Part shown: positions 48,801 through 56,434 of the stretch, piece by piece
Layout of the letters: the number at the start of each line of letters is the position of its first letter
Numbering within the stretch: the stretch's first letter is position 1
Source: Pannonibacter sp. SL95
GTDB lineage: Bacteria > Pseudomonadota > Alphaproteobacteria > Rhizobiales > Stappiaceae
Direction: 5' to 3'
NCBI RefSeq assembly: GCF_026672425.1
Contig: NZ_JAPPRC010000003.1
Coordinates: forward strand, 1,885,541-1,949,540
DNA: 64,000 nucleotides
The notes under the pieces: generated by a model
What the model was told of the DNA's origin: nothing
The model's input: the letters and a program-made list of their open reading frames with translations, nothing else
Databases searched by the model: none
Translations under genes and position numbers: made by a program

Positions 48801-49060
48801 GTCAGTGGGGCGCGTCCGGGCGGAGCCGGGAGGACGGGTCGCGCTGGCTGTCTGGTCTGCGGATCATTGATGGAAAAAGGCCTGAACGCGGGCACGAGCC
48901 CTCAGGTCCGCATGGTCTCTTGCGGCAGTGGCAACCGTTGCCGGGTGTTGCGGTCTTCAGGGGCGCAGCAACCAGGGCAACACAGCTTGCATCCCGTGTT
49001 TGCCTGCTCCCATAACGTGTGGCATGGTCGCGGTGGTGTGGTGGACATCCGGGTGGGGAC
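48801..49060. other. Spacer between the LacI promoter and hsdR
   Basis: About 260 bases separate the sugar operon promoter from the hsdR start; with the LacI leader the gene-free stretch is 380 bases. I see no gene, no clear repeat and no copy of the tRNA-Gln 3' end. It probably contains the hsdR promoter and the left border of the restriction island. Confidence 0.4.
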
Positions 49061-52000
49061 GTGTCGGCAAATTTCGGTCATCTGCAGCAGCTCAGCCCGG
49101 AGTTGCATCGCCTGGGTACCTTGGCGGAGCGGTTTTTCTCCGAGGACGCCAATACCTCGCTGATCAAGAGCCGGCAGTTCGGCGAGTACATGGTCAAGGA
49201 GATCGCCGCGCTGTCTGGCGTCCATGACGCGGCGGCGCGGGAGACGACCCATGACCTGCTGCGGCGGCTGAGCACGCAACAGCTCCTGCCGCGCGAAGTC
49301 ACCGACATCTTCCACGCCGTCCGCAAGAGCGGCAACGAGGCGACGCACAGCCTTGCCGGGACGCCGGCGGAGGCGCTGGCGGCGCTGAAGTTCTGCCGCG
49401 CACTGGGCGTCTGGTACCGCCGCACCTATGGCCGGGATCCAAACTTCAAGCCGGGACCCTTCGTTCCGCCGCGATCCTCCGCCGATATCGATCAGGCGAC
49501 GCAGGAGGAATTGGCAGCCTTGCGCGCAAAGGTGCGCGAGGCGGAGCTGGAACTGGCAGCCGCCCATGCCTCGACGGAAGACCTCGCAAAGGCCCGCGCC
49601 GCTGCCGAAGAGCTCGCTCGCCAGGCGTCAGCCAACAGTGCTGTCTGGGAGCAGGCCGCCGTCCAGATGGAGGCTAATCAGGCCGCACTCGCTCGCAAGC
49701 TTGCCGAACTGCAGAAGGCAGCGGAGGCCCAGCCTGAGCAGTTGCAGATCGAGTTCAAGCAGGCGGGTCTGAAAGCGGCGAGCAGCCTGGAGCTCGATGA
49801 GCGCCAGACCCGCCGGCTGATCGACGTGCAGCTTGTCGATGCCGGATGGGAAGCCGACAGCGACCGCCTGACCTATCAGAGGGGAGCCCGACCGGAGGAA
49901 GGCCGCAACCTGGCCATCGCCGAATGGCCCGCAGAAGGTGGCCGGGCGGATTATGCCCTCTTCGTCGGCCTCACCTGCGTTGGTGTCATCGAGGCCAAGC
50001 GCGAAAGCGTCGATGTGCCTTCCGCCCTCCAGCAGGCCGAGCGCTATGCCCGCACCATTGAGCTCAGCCCGGAAGAGGCGCATCCTGACGGCCCCTGGAA
50101 GCACGGTCTGGATGAGCCCTTCCGCGTGCCTTTCGTCTTTGGCACCAATGGACGGCCCTATGTGCGCCAGTGGCTGACGAAATCCGGCATCTGGTACCGT
50201 GATATCAGGCGCGAGACCAACCACGCCGTCCCGATGACGAGCTGGTTCTCGCCCAAGGACCTGATTGATAAACTCACCACCGATGCCGACACCGCCGCCC
50301 AGGGGCTGGCCGAAGAGAGTTTCGGCAAGGGACGAATGCGCCCTTATCAGGAAGAGGCGATTGCGGCGATCGAGAATGCCGTGGTTGCTGGGCAGCGCGA
50401 CATTCTGGTTTCCATGGCGACTGGCACCGGCAAGACACGGACGGCAATCGCGCTGATGTATCGCTTGCTCAAACACAAGCGCTTCCGTCGCATCCTCTTC
50501 CTCGTTGACCGCAAGGCGCTCGGCCGGCAGACAAGCGACGCGCTCGAAACCACCGAGATCGAGGGCATGCTGAACTTCGCCCAGATCTACAAGGTTGCCG
50601 GGCTGGAGCAGAAACTGCCGGAGGACGAGGACCAGGTGCAGGTTGCGACCGTCCAGTCGCTGATCGCCCGCATCCTCAATGAGCCGGATCCGGCCAAGCG
50701 CCCGACACCCGGCACCTTCGATTGCATCATCGTGGATGAGGCCCATCGCGGCTATACGCTGGATGCGGAGCTGCGCGAAAGCGATATCGGCTTCCGCAAC
50801 ATCGATGACTACCAGTCGGCCTATCGCCAGATCCTTGATTACTTCGACGCCGTGAAGGTGGCGCTGACGGCGACCCCCGCGCTCCACACCCGTGAGATCT
50901 TCGGCCACCCGGTCTTCCATTACGGCTATCGCCAGGCCGTGGTCGAAGGTTACCTCAATGATCACCTGCCGCCGAAGCGCATCACCACAGCTCTGTCGGA
51001 AGCCGGCATCCATTTTGAGGGTGGCGAGGAGGTCGAGATCATCGACCGCAAGACAGGCCAGATCGATCTCTTCGAATTGCCGGATGAAGTCTCGCTTGAT
51101 TACGACCTCGCCGACTTCAACCGACGCGTCTATTCGGAACCCTTCAACCGGGTCGTCTGCCGGGCGATTGCCACCGAGATCCCGCCGTCGAAACCCGGAA
51201 AGACGCTGATCTTCGCCGCGCGCGATGCCCATGCCGATGACATCGTGCGCCTGCTGATCGAGGCATTGCAGGACGAATACGGCGCTGACGCTGTGCCGCA
51301 TGGCATGGTGACGAAGATCACTGGCACGGTCGACAAGGCCGACGACCTGATACTGAAGTTCAAGAACGACCCCTATCCGAAATATGTCGTCACCGTCGAC
51401 CTGCTCACCACAGGCGTCGACGTGCCGTCGATCTGCAATCTCGTCTTCGTCCGCCGGGTCAAGAGCCGCATCCTCTATGACCAGATGATCGGTCGCGCCA
51501 CGCGGCTTTGCCCGGATATCGGCAAGGAGCATTTCCGCATCTTCGATGCCGTCGATCTCTATGCCGAGCTGCAGGAGATGAGCGACATGCGCCCGGTCGT
51601 GGTCAAGCCGGATATCGCCCTCAGCCAGCTCGTCACGGATCTGCAAAATGCGGAAACGGACGAAGACAAGAGCTGGGTCGCAGCGCAGGTCATCGTGCGC
51701 ATGCGAAGTCTCGTGAAGCGCATGGATGCCGAGAACCGGGAAAGTTTCGAACGCCACACGGGCGAGAGCCCCGACATGGCTCTGCAGCGTCTCTCCACCC
51801 GGCCCGGTGCCGAGTTGCAAGAGTGGCTGGCCGCCCATCCCCGCGCCGTCGAGCTGCTCGAGCGCCGCCCGCTCTTCACGGGCAAGAACGATGGCGTGGT
51901 CATCTCCACCCATGAGGATGAGCTGCTGCGCATCGAGGAGATTTTTGGCAAGAACACGACGCCGGAGGATTACATCACCGGCTTCGAACGCTTCGTCCGC

Positions 52001-52468
52001 GAGAACATGAACCAGGTCCCGGCGCTGATTGCCGTCACCCAGCGCCCGCGTGATCTGACCCGCAAGGAACTGTCTGAACTGGCAGGCCTGCTCGACGAGA
52101 AGAACTATTCCGAAGCCATGCTGCGCGCCGCTTACGGCCGCGCCCGCAACTCTGATATCGCCGCCCATATTATCGGCTTCGTCCGTCAGGCAGCTTTGGG
52201 CGATCCGCTCATCCCCTATGCCACCCGCGTTGACAACGCGCTCGTCAAGATTGAGGCCTCGCGGCCCTGGACGCAAAAGCAGAAGGAATGGCTGCGCCGC
52301 ATCGGCCGCGCCCTGAAGGACAAGCCTGTGGCGGATCCGACCCTGCTCGACCAAGGCGCCTTTGCCGACAAGGGCGGCTTCAAGCGCATCGCGCAGGAGT
52401 TCGACGGCGAGCTGGACGAGGTGCTGCATGCCTTCAACGAGGCCATCTGGACGTCACCCGCCGCCTGA
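49061..52468 (+). CDS. hsdR: Type I restriction enzyme, R (translocase/nuclease) subunit
   Basis: 1135 residues. A DUF4145-like N-terminus (TSLIKSRQFGEYMVKEIAA, HAVRKSGNEATHS) and a coiled-coil (about 145-240) precede the nuclease domain with D297 (GRADYALF) and E311-x-K313 (GVIEAKRES). The helicase part has Walker A at about 452-459 (MATGTGKT), DEAH at 559-562 (VDEAHRGY), LTATPAL and QMIGRATRL; a C-terminal EcoEI-type domain follows. All catalytic motifs are intact. The GTG 49061 start (MSANFGHLQQLSPELH) follows a GGTGGGGA site; the frame is open 42 bases further upstream. First gene of hsdR-hsdM-hsdS. Confidence 0.95.
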   Translation: MSANFGHLQQLSPELHRLGTLAERFFSEDANTSLIKSRQFGEYMVKEIAALSGVHDAAARETTHDLLRRLSTQQLLPREVTDIFHAVRKSGNEATHSLAGTPAEALAALKFCRALGVWYRRTYGRDPNFKPGPFVPPRSSADIDQATQEELAALRAKVREAELELAAAHASTEDLAKARAAAEELARQASANSAVWEQAAVQMEANQAALARKLAELQKAAEAQPEQLQIEFKQAGLKAASSLELDERQTRRLIDVQLVDAGWEADSDRLTYQRGARPEEGRNLAIAEWPAEGGRADYALFVGLTCVGVIEAKRESVDVPSALQQAERYARTIELSPEEAHPDGPWKHGLDEPFRVPFVFGTNGRPYVRQWLTKSGIWYRDIRRETNHAVPMTSWFSPKDLIDKLTTDADTAAQGLAEESFGKGRMRPYQEEAIAAIENAVVAGQRDILVSMATGTGKTRTAIALMYRLLKHKRFRRILFLVDRKALGRQTSDALETTEIEGMLNFAQIYKVAGLEQKLPEDEDQVQVATVQSLIARILNEPDPAKRPTPGTFDCIIVDEAHRGYTLDAELRESDIGFRNIDDYQSAYRQILDYFDAVKVALTATPALHTREIFGHPVFHYGYRQAVVEGYLNDHLPPKRITTALSEAGIHFEGGEEVEIIDRKTGQIDLFELPDEVSLDYDLADFNRRVYSEPFNRVVCRAIATEIPPSKPGKTLIFAARDAHADDIVRLLIEALQDEYGADAVPHGMVTKITGTVDKADDLILKFKNDPYPKYVVTVDLLTTGVDVPSICNLVFVRRVKSRILYDQMIGRATRLCPDIGKEHFRIFDAVDLYAELQEMSDMRPVVVKPDIALSQLVTDLQNAETDEDKSWVAAQVIVRMRSLVKRMDAENRESFERHTGESPDMALQRLSTRPGAELQEWLAAHPRAVELLERRPLFTGKNDGVVISTHEDELLRIEEIFGKNTTPEDYITGFERFVRENMNQVPALIAVTQRPRDLTRKELSELAGLLDEKNYSEAMLRAAYGRARNSDIAAHIIGFVRQAALGDPLIPYATRVDNALVKIEASRPWTQKQKEWLRRIGRALKDKPVADPTLLDQGAFADKGGFKRIAQEFDGELDEVLHAFNEAIWTSPAA

Positions 52469-52562
52469 GCCCCGGGGGACAGGCGGGGGCAGGGGCCGTT
52501 GACCTCATCCCCCGGACCGGTACAAGCGCAGACATGATCCCGCATTGCCAGAGAATCACGCC

Positions 52563-54098
52563 ATGAACGCCAATGCCATTGTCCAGAAACTCTGGCGCCT
52601 CTGCACGGTCCTGCGCAAGGACGGCATCACCTATCAGCAATATGTCACCGAGCTGACCTATCTGCTGTTTCTGAAGATGATGGCCGAGCGCAACCGCGAG
52701 ACGGGCAGCCTGCCCAAGGGCATGCGCTGGGCAGATCTGGTCGCGGCAAACGGACTGGCGAAGCTCGAACATTACCGCAAGGTTCTCGTCACCCTCGGCG
52801 CCGCCAGCTCACGCCTGGGCGAAGACGATGGTCTTCTCTCGCCCCCCGGCGAAGGCGCCAGCCCGGAAGAGCGCAGGCGTTATGCCGATGCCCGACCCCT
52901 GCCGGAGATGGTGCAAAAGATCTTCGACAACGCCTCCACCTTCCTGCGCGAGCCGCAGAACCTGACGACGCTGGTCACTGCCATCGACGAGCTCGACTGG
53001 TTTTCCGAAGAACGCGACCAGTTCGGCGATCTCTATGAAGGCCTGCTGCAGAAGAACGCGGAAGAAACCAAGCGCGGCGCCGGTCAGTATTTTACCCCCC
53101 GCGTGCTGATCGAGCTTCTGGTCCGCCTGATGCAGCCAAAGCCCGGCGAAGTCATCCAGGATCCGGCCGCCGGCACCGGTGGCTTTCTGATTGCTGCCGA
53201 TCGCTACATGAAGGCGCGCACCGACGACTATCTGGCGCTTGGCGAAAAGGAACAGGAGTTCCAGAAGCGCCGCGCCATCCACGGCATGGAAAACGTGCCG
53301 GGCACGCTGCGCCTGCTGCTGATGAACCTTTATCTGCACGATATCGACGGCGACCATGTCGATCTCGGCGATACGCTCTCCGACAAGGGCAAGGGTCTGG
53401 GCCGCGCCAATCTCATCCTCACCAATCCGCCCTTTGGCCCGGCCGGCGGCGCGCCAACCCGCGATGACCTCTCGGTCACCGCAAACGTCTCCTCCTACCA
53501 GCTTCCCTTTGTCGAACACTGCATCCGTGCACTTCAGCCCGGTGGCCGCGCGGCGATTGTTGTGCCGGATAATGTCCTGTTCGAAGACGGGCGCGGGCGC
53601 GAACTGCGCCGGATGATGATGGACTGGTGCGACCTGCACACCATCCTGCGCCTGCCGACCGGCATCTTCTACGCGCAGGGCGTCAAGACCAATGTCATCT
53701 TCCTGACGAGGGCCAAGACCGAGAGCGGCAATACCAAATCCGTCTGGATCTATGACCTGCGCGCCCAGATGCCGAAATTCGGCAAGACCACGCCGCTGAC
53801 GGAAGCCCATTTCGAAGGCTTCGAACTGGCCTTTGGCAAGGACCCATACGGGAAGGAGCGCGGGCCGGACGAAGGCGAAGCCGGCCGCTGGCGGGAGTTT
53901 AAACGCGAGGCCATCGCCGCCCGTGGCGACAATCTCGATATCGCCTGGCTGCGCGAGGCAGAGGAAGAGGCGGAAGAAGGCCTCATCGAACCCGACGACA
54001 TCGCCGCCGCCATTTTGGGCCATCTGCAGGCCGCGACGCTGGAGATCGAGGCGCTGATGGCGGAACTGGGCGACGAGCTACCGGAGACGGCGGAATGA
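52563..54098 (+). CDS. hsdM: Type I DNA methyltransferase, M subunit
   Basis: 511-residue N6-adenine methyltransferase. An HsdM N-terminal helical domain (MNANAIVQKLWRLCTVLRKDGITYQQYVTELTYLLFLKMM) is followed by KRGAGQYFTPRVLIELLVRLMQP, AdoMet motif I D200-PAAGTGGF and the catalytic N288-PPF (LTNPPFGPAGG). ATG 52563 was chosen over an in-frame start six codons earlier because it matches the family start. It lies 94 bases after hsdR and overlaps hsdS by four bases (ATGA). Confidence 0.96.
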   Translation: MNANAIVQKLWRLCTVLRKDGITYQQYVTELTYLLFLKMMAERNRETGSLPKGMRWADLVAANGLAKLEHYRKVLVTLGAASSRLGEDDGLLSPPGEGASPEERRRYADARPLPEMVQKIFDNASTFLREPQNLTTLVTAIDELDWFSEERDQFGDLYEGLLQKNAEETKRGAGQYFTPRVLIELLVRLMQPKPGEVIQDPAAGTGGFLIAADRYMKARTDDYLALGEKEQEFQKRRAIHGMENVPGTLRLLLMNLYLHDIDGDHVDLGDTLSDKGKGLGRANLILTNPPFGPAGGAPTRDDLSVTANVSSYQLPFVEHCIRALQPGGRAAIVVPDNVLFEDGRGRELRRMMMDWCDLHTILRLPTGIFYAQGVKTNVIFLTRAKTESGNTKSVWIYDLRAQMPKFGKTTPLTEAHFEGFELAFGKDPYGKERGPDEGEAGRWREFKREAIAARGDNLDIAWLREAEEEAEEGLIEPDDIAAAILGHLQAATLEIEALMAELGDELPETAE

Positions 54099-55414
54099 GT
54101 GCGCTGCCGAGGGGGTGGGTTGGAGCGACGCTGGACGACTTCTGTGACTTCGAGAACGGAGATCGCGGGAAGAATTACTCCGGGCGAAGCACCTTTGTGG
54201 CAAGTGGCGTCCCGTTCATAAGCGCCGGGCATCTTAACAATGGCCACATCGATTGGGAGGAAATGAACTACATTCCCCAGACAAACTACGACCGCTTGGG
54301 GTCGGGGAAAGTCAAAAGCGGAGATTTTCTGTTTTGTCTTCGGGGTTCTCTCGGAAAACATGCGTTCGTTCCGAAAATCGATGCTGCTGCTATTGCCTCA
54401 TCACTGGTGATCGTCAGGCCTAGCCAGCTTACCGACTGCAAGTTCGTCGACTACTATTTTCGAAGCCCGCTCGTTAAGTCCTCAATCGAAGTCTATTCAA
54501 ACGGCGTAGCACAACCCAATCTCTCCTCCGCCAATCTTGGAAGATTTGGTTTTCCCCTCCCACCCTTGGCCGAGCAAAAGCGCATCGTGGCGAAGCTGGA
54601 TGCGCTGAACGCGAATTCCGCCCGCGCCCGCACCGAATTCGCCCGCATCGAAACCCTCGTCTCCCGCTACAAACAGGCCGTGCTCAGCAAGGCGTTTGCA
54701 AATTCCAAAGGTAGGACGATAGTACTCGCCGAACTGATCTCGCCAGAAGCACCGATCAGATATGGTGTCCTTCAACCGGGCACGATTAGAGATGCAGGCG
54801 TTCCTCTCGTAAGAGTCTGTGATCTGATTGATAGCCGGGTGAGTTGGGCTCAACTGCGCAAGATTGAGCCTTCAATCGATAAGCAATTTGCAAATGCCCG
54901 GATTCAGAACGGAGATATTCTGCTTTCAGTAGTTGGAACAATTGGTCGCATCGCGCTTGTTGAAGGAATGACCGAGCCAACTAATATTGCCCGTGCAGTC
55001 GCACGAATCCGGCCAAATCAGAACATCGTGAGGCCAGAGTGGCTTGCGTTGCGTTTGCAGGCAAGTGACTGCCAAGAAAGCTTTTCAGGCGATGCACGTG
55101 AGGTTGCGAGGAAAACGCTGAATGTGTCGATGGTGCGCACAATTAAGCTAGCGCTCCCCACCCTCGAAGAACAACACGAAATCGTCCGCCGCATCGAATC
55201 CGCCTTCGCCAAGATCGACCGATTGGCGAAAGAGGCAAAGCGCGCGCTGGAGCTGGTGGGCCGGCTGGACGAGGCGATCCTGGCCAAAGCCTTCCGCGGC
55301 GAACTGGTCCCCCAGGACGAAAGCGACGAACCCGCCGAACACCTCCTCGCCCGCATCCGTGCCGAGCGCGACAAGGCACCGAAGGCACGGCGGGGGCGGC
55401 AGGCTAGATCGTGA
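54095..55414 (+). CDS. hsdS: Type I restriction-modification specificity subunit
   Basis: 439 residues with two target-recognition domains and two conserved helical spacers. Domain 1 is about residues 1-165, then the spacer PLPPLAEQKRIVAKLDALNANSARARTEFARIETLVSRYKQAVLSKAF; domain 2 is about 200-350, then LPTLEEQHEIVRRIESAFAKIDRLAKEAKRALELVGRLDEAILAKAFRGEL. The two domains are visibly less GC-rich than the spacers and neighbours, as expected of exchanged recognition modules. The DNA site recognised cannot be read from sequence. The stop overlaps the next gene by four bases. Confidence 0.95.
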   Translation: MSALPRGWVGATLDDFCDFENGDRGKNYSGRSTFVASGVPFISAGHLNNGHIDWEEMNYIPQTNYDRLGSGKVKSGDFLFCLRGSLGKHAFVPKIDAAAIASSLVIVRPSQLTDCKFVDYYFRSPLVKSSIEVYSNGVAQPNLSSANLGRFGFPLPPLAEQKRIVAKLDALNANSARARTEFARIETLVSRYKQAVLSKAFANSKGRTIVLAELISPEAPIRYGVLQPGTIRDAGVPLVRVCDLIDSRVSWAQLRKIEPSIDKQFANARIQNGDILLSVVGTIGRIALVEGMTEPTNIARAVARIRPNQNIVRPEWLALRLQASDCQESFSGDAREVARKTLNVSMVRTIKLALPTLEEQHEIVRRIESAFAKIDRLAKEAKRALELVGRLDEAILAKAFRGELVPQDESDEPAEHLLARIRAERDKAPKARRGRQARS

Positions 55415-56046
55415 TAGCTAGAACCTCTGACGCGCTTCGGCTCTGCACACTGGAGGACGCGAGGGCGGCAATTGCCGCGGCGTGGCCTTGGATCGTGTCG
55501 GAATGCCGAAGTGTTCTGGCTGGCGAGCTACATTACCAAGCCGTGATTTATCACTGTTTTCGTCTGGCTGGTGTTCCCGCCGGACAACTCGGCATGAACG
55601 TCAAGCAGTGGGTCGACAATCCTGTTTCCCGGTTGTTCCAGGCCCTCGATCAACGCAAGGCGGAGGGCTTTCGAGGGGGCTTTGAGCCGATCCCCGATGT
55701 CGTGCTGTTCACTGACGCCATCCGGGGAGACTTGCGTCGCCGCAACTGCAGCCAGACATTGCGGCACATGCTCGCCGCCATCGAAGTGAAGGCCAGCGAA
55801 CGGGCCCGATCCCGCCTTGGCCCCGGCGAAGTCAGGTCCGATATCGACAAGCTTGCTGCGCATAGAGCCGAGGTGAAAGCGAGATCCGGTGAAATGATTC
55901 CAGTCATGATGGTGATTGATACGGCTCCTTTGGTAGAGGAACGAATGACGCCTCACGCTATTGCAGCTTGCCGGGCAAGAGCCGTCGAGCTCGATGTCGA
56001 CTGGTACTATGTCGCGGCAAACGTTGAGCATCACCCGGACATTTGA
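55411..56046 (+). CDS. Small PD-(D/E)XK-like protein coupled to hsdS
   Basis: 211 residues; not a standard type I subunit and not a family I can name. It has a possible nuclease core: helix with ELHYQAVIYHCFR (about 39-51), P95-D96 (PIPDVVLF) and E125-x-K127 (LAAIEVKASE), followed by SDIDKLAAHR and a hydrophobic strand MIPVMMVIDTAP. This order (E-helix, PD, ExK) is that of PD-(D/E)XK enzymes. GTG 55411 overlaps the hsdS stop (GTGA), so it is translated with the restriction system. Inference: an accessory defence nuclease or regulator. Confidence 0.7.
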   Translation: MIARTSDALRLCTLEDARAAIAAAWPWIVSECRSVLAGELHYQAVIYHCFRLAGVPAGQLGMNVKQWVDNPVSRLFQALDQRKAEGFRGGFEPIPDVVLFTDAIRGDLRRRNCSQTLRHMLAAIEVKASERARSRLGPGEVRSDIDKLAAHRAEVKARSGEMIPVMMVIDTAPLVEERMTPHAIAACRARAVELDVDWYYVAANVEHHPDI

Positions 56047-56066
56047 CCGTTTCTTGGGAGCTGAGA

Positions 56067-56231
56067 ATGACCAGCCCCGATTACGAGTCCCCCATGCGTC
56101 CGGTGCTGCGGCTGGCGGCGGTTGGAGAAACCCGTGTGGCGGATGTGGCCGAGCACATTGCGGATGATCTCTGCCTGAGCCAGGCGGAGCGGGAGGAGCT
56201 TTTGCCGAGCGGGCGGCTGCAGTTTCAATGA
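56067..56231 (+). pseudogene. Truncated Mrr N-terminal (winged-helix) domain
   Basis: 54 residues: MTSPDYESPMRPVLRLAAVG, then VADVAEHIADDLCLSQAEREELLPSG. This resembles the N-terminal DNA-binding domain of Mrr-type restriction enzymes (..LTEEERxELLPSG..), but the sequence stops at RLQFQ, before the rest of the domain and the whole nuclease part. It lies 20 bases after the preceding gene and is preceded by a GGGAGCTGAG site. Most likely the 5' remnant of an mrr gene at the edge of the island; a working stand-alone small protein is the alternative. Confidence 0.6.
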
Positions 56232-56360
56232 TTTGATGCGGGGACGGCTTGGATCGCCGGGATGCCCGCCGCACACGCGCTAGGGCAACAGAACATTTGA
56301 GTGTGGGGACGTCCCCAAGGGGGAGTACCGTACGTCTGCCTGTGTTTGCTTGGAAGTTTT

Positions 56361-56434
56361 TGGCTGGGGAACCTGGATTCGAACCAGGACTAACGGAGTC
56401 AGAGTCCGTGGGTCTACCGTTAACCTATTCCCCA
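56361..56434 (-). tRNA. tRNA-Gln (anticodon CUG)
   Basis: On the minus strand the acceptor stem is TGGGGAA (56428-56434) with TTCCCCA (56365-56371), followed by G and an encoded CCA (56361-56363). The T-arm GGTTCGAATCC and an anticodon stem ACGGA/TCCGT with loop CTCTGAC are present, giving anticodon CUG. All arms fold as a standard 74-base tRNA. Its 3' end points toward the restriction island, the usual orientation for tRNA-targeted integration. Confidence 0.95.

Follow-up and report, generated by a model that had tools for sequence, protein, structure and literature searches.

The window analysed here, a stretch of 64,000 nucleotides from Pannonibacter sp. SL95, contains a type I restriction-modification operon with a further gene, here called X, placed directly behind hsdS. 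In all likelihood X is a defence gene in its own right, which has entered a site at which type I operons gain extra genes. On balance, we consider it probable that X encodes an autonomous, metal-dependent PD-(D/E)XK endonuclease that forms a one-gene defence (or DNA-exclusion) element, captured between hsdS and mrr and coupled to hsdS. This reading is supported by the predicted fold, the conserved motif, carriage of X apart from hsd genes, its presence in integron cassettes, the variability of the slot it occupies and a history apart from that of hsdR and hsdM. As an accessory DNase, X would probably act against phages or plasmids.

The operon comprises hsdR (49019–52468), which matches the type I endonuclease model PRK11448 of NCBIfam and has an HSDR_N domain, hsdM (52560–54098, N6_Mtase) and hsdS (54095–55414, two Methylase_S stretches), all open frames on the forward strand. 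Gene X (55411–56046, forward strand) encodes a PD-(D/E)XK nuclease-like protein of 211 aa, and its GTG start lies within the stop of hsdS, giving an overlap of 4 nt (GTGA). The PRK11448 match extends across residues 16–1146 of the 1149 in HsdR, with HSDR_N above the Pfam cut-off, and X is therefore not a substitute for a lost HsdR nuclease. A remnant of mrr follows (56067–56231, forward strand), running for 54 codons before a stop, and its 47–50 N-terminal residues are 52–74% identical to the mrr of three related loci.

PD-(D/E)XK proteins are defined by D...(E/D)-x-K on neighboring core strands with an acidic helix residue before them, and in X the residues E39, D96, E125 and K127 lie at fitting predicted elements. 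The acidic E39 begins the stretch ELHYQA at a helix start (codons 39–44, 55525–55542), P-D (codons 95–96, 55693–55698) directly precedes core strand 97–100, and E-V-K (codons 125–127, 55783–55791) lies inside core strand 120–128, all on the forward strand. These four residues and P95 are invariant in 30/30 aligned rows (the window and 29 homologues), of which E39 was part of the patterns used to find homologues, while PD and ExK were both absent from those patterns. Further invariant positions include S129, E130, D144 and K147. The alignment excludes two loci in which the frame is broken or cut (L030 and L032), and the genes of L002 and L003, being those of L005 and L010, were not counted again. 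The invariance of the motif residues is more than chance would give. In all six family pairs compared, dN/dS (Nei-Gojobori) was 0.05–0.18, indicating that the family is under purifying selection. One homologue, from Bacteroidales (L025:91-1020), has a C-terminal extension of ∼100 residues.

The AlphaFold2 model of X, built on the 30-row alignment, has a mean pLDDT of 95.5 and a pTM of 0.91, and shows one confidently modelled domain over all 211 residues, with D96 before strand 97–100, E125 and K127 in strand 120–128 and helix 39–52 starting at E39. Structural realignment (VIA-align) ranked NucC best (Z 8.5, 156 aligned, 4.4 Å), followed by Cdn1 (Z 8.2), BstEII, BsoBI, PspGI and CdiA-CT (Z 7.9), Can2 (Z 7.7), Card1 (Z 7.5) and SduA (Z 7.0), with values near 8 being a level that the fold-comparison tool itself rates as common. 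We take all nine to be nucleases of the PD-(D/E)XK-type (restriction-endonuclease-like) fold, and such nucleases make up most of the rows, although a few unrelated proteins appear lower down, such as a Rab GTPase (Z 5.5). Foldseek alone gave a weak result, with a best E of 5e-3 (Cdn1) and no match at E ≤ 0.001 in the PDB and viral models. The assignment to the PD-(D/E)XK fold is thus supported by the motif together with the kind of fold matches obtained. NucC and SduA (Shedu) belong to the fold neighbors covering most of the modelled X chain; sequence searches of the PDB gave no match to their chains at E ≤ 10 with the window protein or at E ≤ 5 with the 30-member profile. The SduA alignment starts only at SduA residue 198, and X lacks an SduA-like front part. 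As a CBASS effector, NucC has a cyclase gene in the same operon, whereas within the operon of X, the part covered here, the neighbors are hsdR, hsdM, hsdS and the mrr remnant, with no cyclase.

Against Pfam, the sole match of X was VRR_NUC (PF08774), below threshold at 16.1 bits against a gathering value of 23.8 (E 0.012). Weak matches to VRR_NUC were found in 15 of the 30 family members at E ≤ 0.1 (best 6e-4) and to Uma2 (PF05685) in 10 of 30 at the same level, though the window copy has no Uma2 match. Both are counted here as PD-(D/E)XK nuclease families, and VRR-NUC proteins are structure-specific nucleases. In one family member, the match to DUF2019 (7.7e-5) surpassed those to all nuclease families, and a single member matched DUF498. 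There was nothing for X in PADLOC or NCBIfam at E ≤ 1, no PHROG match at E ≤ 0.01 for any of the 30 members and no match of the window protein to PDB sequences at E ≤ 10, while the 30-member profile found four unrelated PDB chains at E ≤ 5 and nothing else. Neither X nor the hsdS-mrr slot described below was found described in the literature searched, which had most subscription journals outside its reach. On the strength of its model, X is therefore best described as a PD-(D/E)XK protein whose family has no name yet and whose conservation points to nuclease activity. The first-pass annotation of this DNA had proposed just such a protein of unnamed family, in a 211-residue frame overlapping hsdS by four bases and with a core of P95-D96 and E125-x-K127 behind an E-containing helix. 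The frame, the overlap and the motif are all found in place, X stays below the model thresholds of Pfam, NCBIfam, PADLOC and PHROG, and the structure prediction, which could have contradicted the proposed fold, instead agrees with it. Its suggestion of an accessory nuclease is the best supported reading of the putative function of X.

X is rare. Homologues were obtained from a draw across the phylum (2 of 397 further genomes, giving L002 and L003; 3/398 with its own genome included), from species-representative genomes (30 loci) and from one viral contig, the only X locus in the viral collection. Searches by tblastn gave no match in the plasmid collection at E ≤ 1e-3 and none in 50,697 phage records at E ≤ 0.01. 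Outside the window, hsdRMS stands in front of X at 1 of 31 loci, that of Xaviernesmea (L004), where X overlaps hsdS as ATGA; this count comes from blastp of the window HsdR, HsdM and HsdS (E ≤ 1e-4) against ORFs in flanks of up to 8 kb, some on short contigs, a test that unrelated hsd families would escape. No neighbor family is common to more than three loci, and one of the 31 lies inside a prophage. In a phage genome (L034), X is flanked at some distance by a ParB-like gene on one side and the terminase genes on the other, further ORFs lying in between, and L020 has the same neighborhood. In two Sphingomonas genomes, a ParB-type DNA methyltransferase gene (L014:8696-10234; L026:8789-10276) lies 107 and 191 nt downstream of X, respectively, and that of L026 best matches a phage DNA methyltransferase family and has ParB-like matches. 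Given these copies in or near phage-type genes, the ancestral job of X may have been in phage DNA metabolism. At L018, an MmeI-like enzyme is encoded 3.3 kb from X on the opposite strand. Only 4 of 10 hand-picked long neighbor proteins from six loci matched PADLOC (E ≤ 1e-10), the four coming from three loci, and others are housekeeping proteins such as RNA polymerase; X is thus not generally found in a defence island.

Integron cassettes typically carry an attC site 3′ of the gene and a recombination end 5′ of it, with an integrase nearby. Three homologous loci, from two Cyanobium genomes and one betaproteobacterial MAG (L008, L015 and L033), resemble such cassettes; the comparison concerns these homologues and not the window copy. 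All three features are present at L015, where an integrase ORF ends 178 nt upstream, a GTTAGGT end lies 5′ of X and a folding attC-like site lies 3′ (hairpin z −3.8). L008 has the attC-like site (z −3.1) and the GTTAGGT end, the integrase matches of that genome all being on other contigs. At L033 there is an integrase, with one ORF of 143 aa between it and X, a weak 3′ site (hairpin z only −1.3) and an imperfect 5′ end. The integrases beside X at L015 and L033 score 466 and 452 bits against a family cut-off of 265, which was exceeded in 0/14 control genomes, with placement beside X read from contig coordinates. The cassettes of L008 and L015 contain X alone.

Close HsdM relatives were sought among 397 genomes of the order (E ≤ 1e-200), 87 of the family and 50 of three further families (E ≤ 1e-180), in overlapping draws that yielded 13 genomes besides its own, and all 13 loci were compared; at class level, 385 genomes held none but its own at E ≤ 1e-180. 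X was found in none of the 13, the stretch covered after hsdS being only 1.0 kb at L044 and 1.6 kb at L057, which are also the two loci where no mrr was found. In 9 of 13, mrr lies downstream of hsdS in the same direction (frame-broken at L056), while its 3′ end alone is left at L043 and L065. At L043, the last 50 codons of mrr (L043:8463-8631) begin within 20 nt of hsdS, as though a deletion had taken out the slot together with the bulk of mrr. In the nine, hsdS and mrr are 0.6–3.1 kb apart, and the slot differs in gene content, holding an AAA_21 ATPase with a second protein lacking a Pfam match (L045), an HNH protein (L052) or a T5orf172 protein (L054, and also L065), both above the Pfam cut-off, a DUF6615 protein (L056), a recombinase-bearing insert as judged by eye (L064), or proteins without an accepted Pfam match (L041, L042, L053 and L055). 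We assume T5orf172 to be a GIY-YIG-type domain. By blastp, the slot proteins of L041, L053 and L055 connect to those of L054 or L065, directly or via one another. Four of the 13 loci (L042, L054, L056 and L065) have slot genes that, like X, begin within the stop codon of hsdS. The slot is empty on an Acetobacter plasmid, with 4 nt from hsdS to mrr, and at an Allochromatium plasmid locus (L058), for which no mrr is listed, hsdS is followed by a 288-aa protein without a Pfam match.

A wider sample, taken with HsdR at E ≤ 1e-250 in 398 phylum genomes, gave nine genomes besides its own, all of which were compared. Downstream mrr was found in three, separated from hsdS by 41 nt (L085, a nearly empty slot), one gene (L084) or two genes (L087), whereas the stretches compared from the remaining six showed no mrr. 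Judged by eye, what occupies the slot at L084 and L087 is not nuclease-like. Other genes overlap hsdS at L066, L067 and L089, one of those at L066 carrying a GmrSD_N domain. Genes coupled to hsdS are common in the type I lineage of the window, and the expectation that a type I operon normally ends with hsdS fits this lineage poorly, with mrr and slot genes found beyond it. That the slot always holds a nuclease was also considered and rejected, as nuclease domains are supported only in part of the slots and the content of L045, L056, L084 and L087 differs.

Between the window and L004, hsdR and hsdM are 88–90% identical, with dS values of 0.60 and 0.47, but X is only 62% identical, with a dS of 1.90 that is near saturation (Nei-Gojobori throughout). 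Genes inherited together in one operon are expected to show similar synonymous divergence, and as that of X is three to four times that of hsdR and hsdM, one line or both must have replaced X or gained it independently of the operon. In the tree, the two X copies are nearest neighbors with weak support (84/75), a pairing that, as far as the sequences go, fits either two captures or one capture and a later exchange. Simple arrival of X with the operon is not favoured, given this weak join and the excess in dS. Nor does X show the constant linkage expected of a type I subunit, and with hsdRMS at 1/31 loci and X in 0/13 close hsdRMS relatives, it is cargo and not a subunit. X thus has the marks of an embedded gene, being coupled to the hsd operon, absent from sister operons and found elsewhere without hsd genes. 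The linkage to type I systems proposed in the first-pass annotation therefore stands in part: X holds the same position in the same operon lineage in the window and L004, so its placement is not wholly random, but the association is weak and inconstant.

These observations suggest the following working model. Once captured in the variable cargo slot between hsdS and mrr, X would be translated by stop-restart coupling from hsdS at GTGA, and would be co-expressed with the restriction-modification enzymes yet independent of all of them, cutting invading DNA missed by the type I enzyme. Its target would most likely be some structure of DNA, or some foreign feature, that the DNA of a resting host does not present. 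Because the cassettes and most other copies have no recognised adjacent methyltransferase, X probably does not need self-protection by sequence methylation, and a nuclease keyed to structure or to a foreign modification would be the simplest way to spare the host.

Other explanations of X share part of this evidence. That it regulates or restrains the type I enzyme, as an immunity or anti-restriction factor, had been raised in the first-pass annotation and is suggested by the translational overlap with hsdS and by nothing else; the 13 close hsdRMS relatives in which X was not seen, the copies elsewhere without hsd genes and the fully conserved motif residues all oppose it, which makes this idea very improbable. 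X could also be a restriction enzyme of type II, with a methyltransferase of the host or of a neighboring gene protecting its site, and the methyltransferase genes downstream of X at L014 and L026 and the MmeI-like enzyme at L018 would suit such a role. The L026 neighbor, however, best fits a phage methyltransferase family, and since X is alone in the cassettes of L008 and L015, it is unlikely to work in a type II mode with a methyltransferase of its own; we give this explanation little credence overall.

A more serious contender, though still an unlikely one, is that X is a nuclease of phages or mobile elements, such as a resolvase or packaging helper, which hitch-hikes and lies only incidentally behind hsdS. 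Its place between ParB-like and terminase genes at L034 and L020 agrees with this, as does VRR_NUC being the commonest weak family match, but X has a single locus in the viral collection and no match in the phage records, none of the 30 members matched a PHROG, and such a role sits poorly with carriage in integrons. Slightly less doubtful is a narrower form of the preferred reading of X as an autonomous defence nuclease, in which it would be modification-dependent (type IV-like), cutting modified phage DNA and complementing HsdRMS in the manner of TgvAB, which serves as a precedent inside a Vibrio cholerae type I operon (PMC11411939). The position of X between hsdRMS and mrr and the scarcity of recognised partner methyltransferases at its loci favour this form, while its 211 residues make up one modelled domain and Pfam gives no separate base-reader domain.

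Type I loci are already known to harbour embedded defence genes, which have reportedly been the subject of a study by Payne et al.; X adds one more, as a candidate. In Vibrio cholerae, TgvAB lies in the type I operon of VPI-2, where it defends against phages whose DNA is modified and does so independently of HsdR activity (PMC11411939). TgvAB resembles X as foreign defence genes in a type I operon that also occur alone elsewhere, and illustrates by analogy that such cargo can form an independent second layer, but it is GmrSD-related, consists of two proteins and lies inside the operon, whereas X is one PD-(D/E)XK-like protein after hsdS. DarTG2 between hsdS and hsdR of an E. coli type I island (PMC12255303) and PrrC in EcoprrI (PMC12707154) are likewise cargo genes within an hsd locus, though as a toxin-antitoxin pair and an anticodon nuclease they are other proteins in other positions. 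A further report, as far as it was accessible, concerns different genes (PMC8432527).

If the preferred reading is true, new defence genes can be sought between hsdS and mrr by position alone, X is a candidate of one gene for which an active-site mutant provides a clean control, and exchangeable cargo can pass for a fixed fourth type I member, which matters for guilt-by-association calls. More tentatively, X may found a one-gene nuclease defence family spreading by integron cassette, prophage and operon capture in Pseudomonadota, Cyanobacteriota, Bacteroidota and others, with the hsdS-mrr gap a general docking site for such hsdS-coupled genes; this docking site is the part most deserving of a survey.

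The block from hsdR to the mrr remnant (window 48985–56360) ends beside a tRNA-Gln(CTG) gene (56361–56434, reverse strand), which has its 3′ end toward the operon and is separated from the mrr remnant by 129 nt. Four genomes of the same genus retain the region from tRNA-Gln to ppx, but the 4–11 kb compared to the left of tRNA-Gln have almost nothing in common with the window, as at an integration hotspot. A left attachment site would be expected to repeat the 3′ end of tRNA-Gln in direct orientation, but the last 12 nt of that gene have no second exact copy in the window. In one same-genus genome, a 147-nt remnant of the hsdR start (L081:1636-1782), 93% identical, lies ∼9 kb left of its tRNA-Gln and is perhaps the scar of an earlier copy.

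Further variation was seen among the related operons. A second cargo site is present between hsdR and hsdM in a distant relative, with three ORFs (L084:3696-5725, reverse-complement coordinates), and L085 has one ORF in that position. A stretch of ∼110 residues is common to L054, as a separate small ORF, L065, as the N-terminus of its T5orf172 protein, and L066, as the C-terminus of an ORF.
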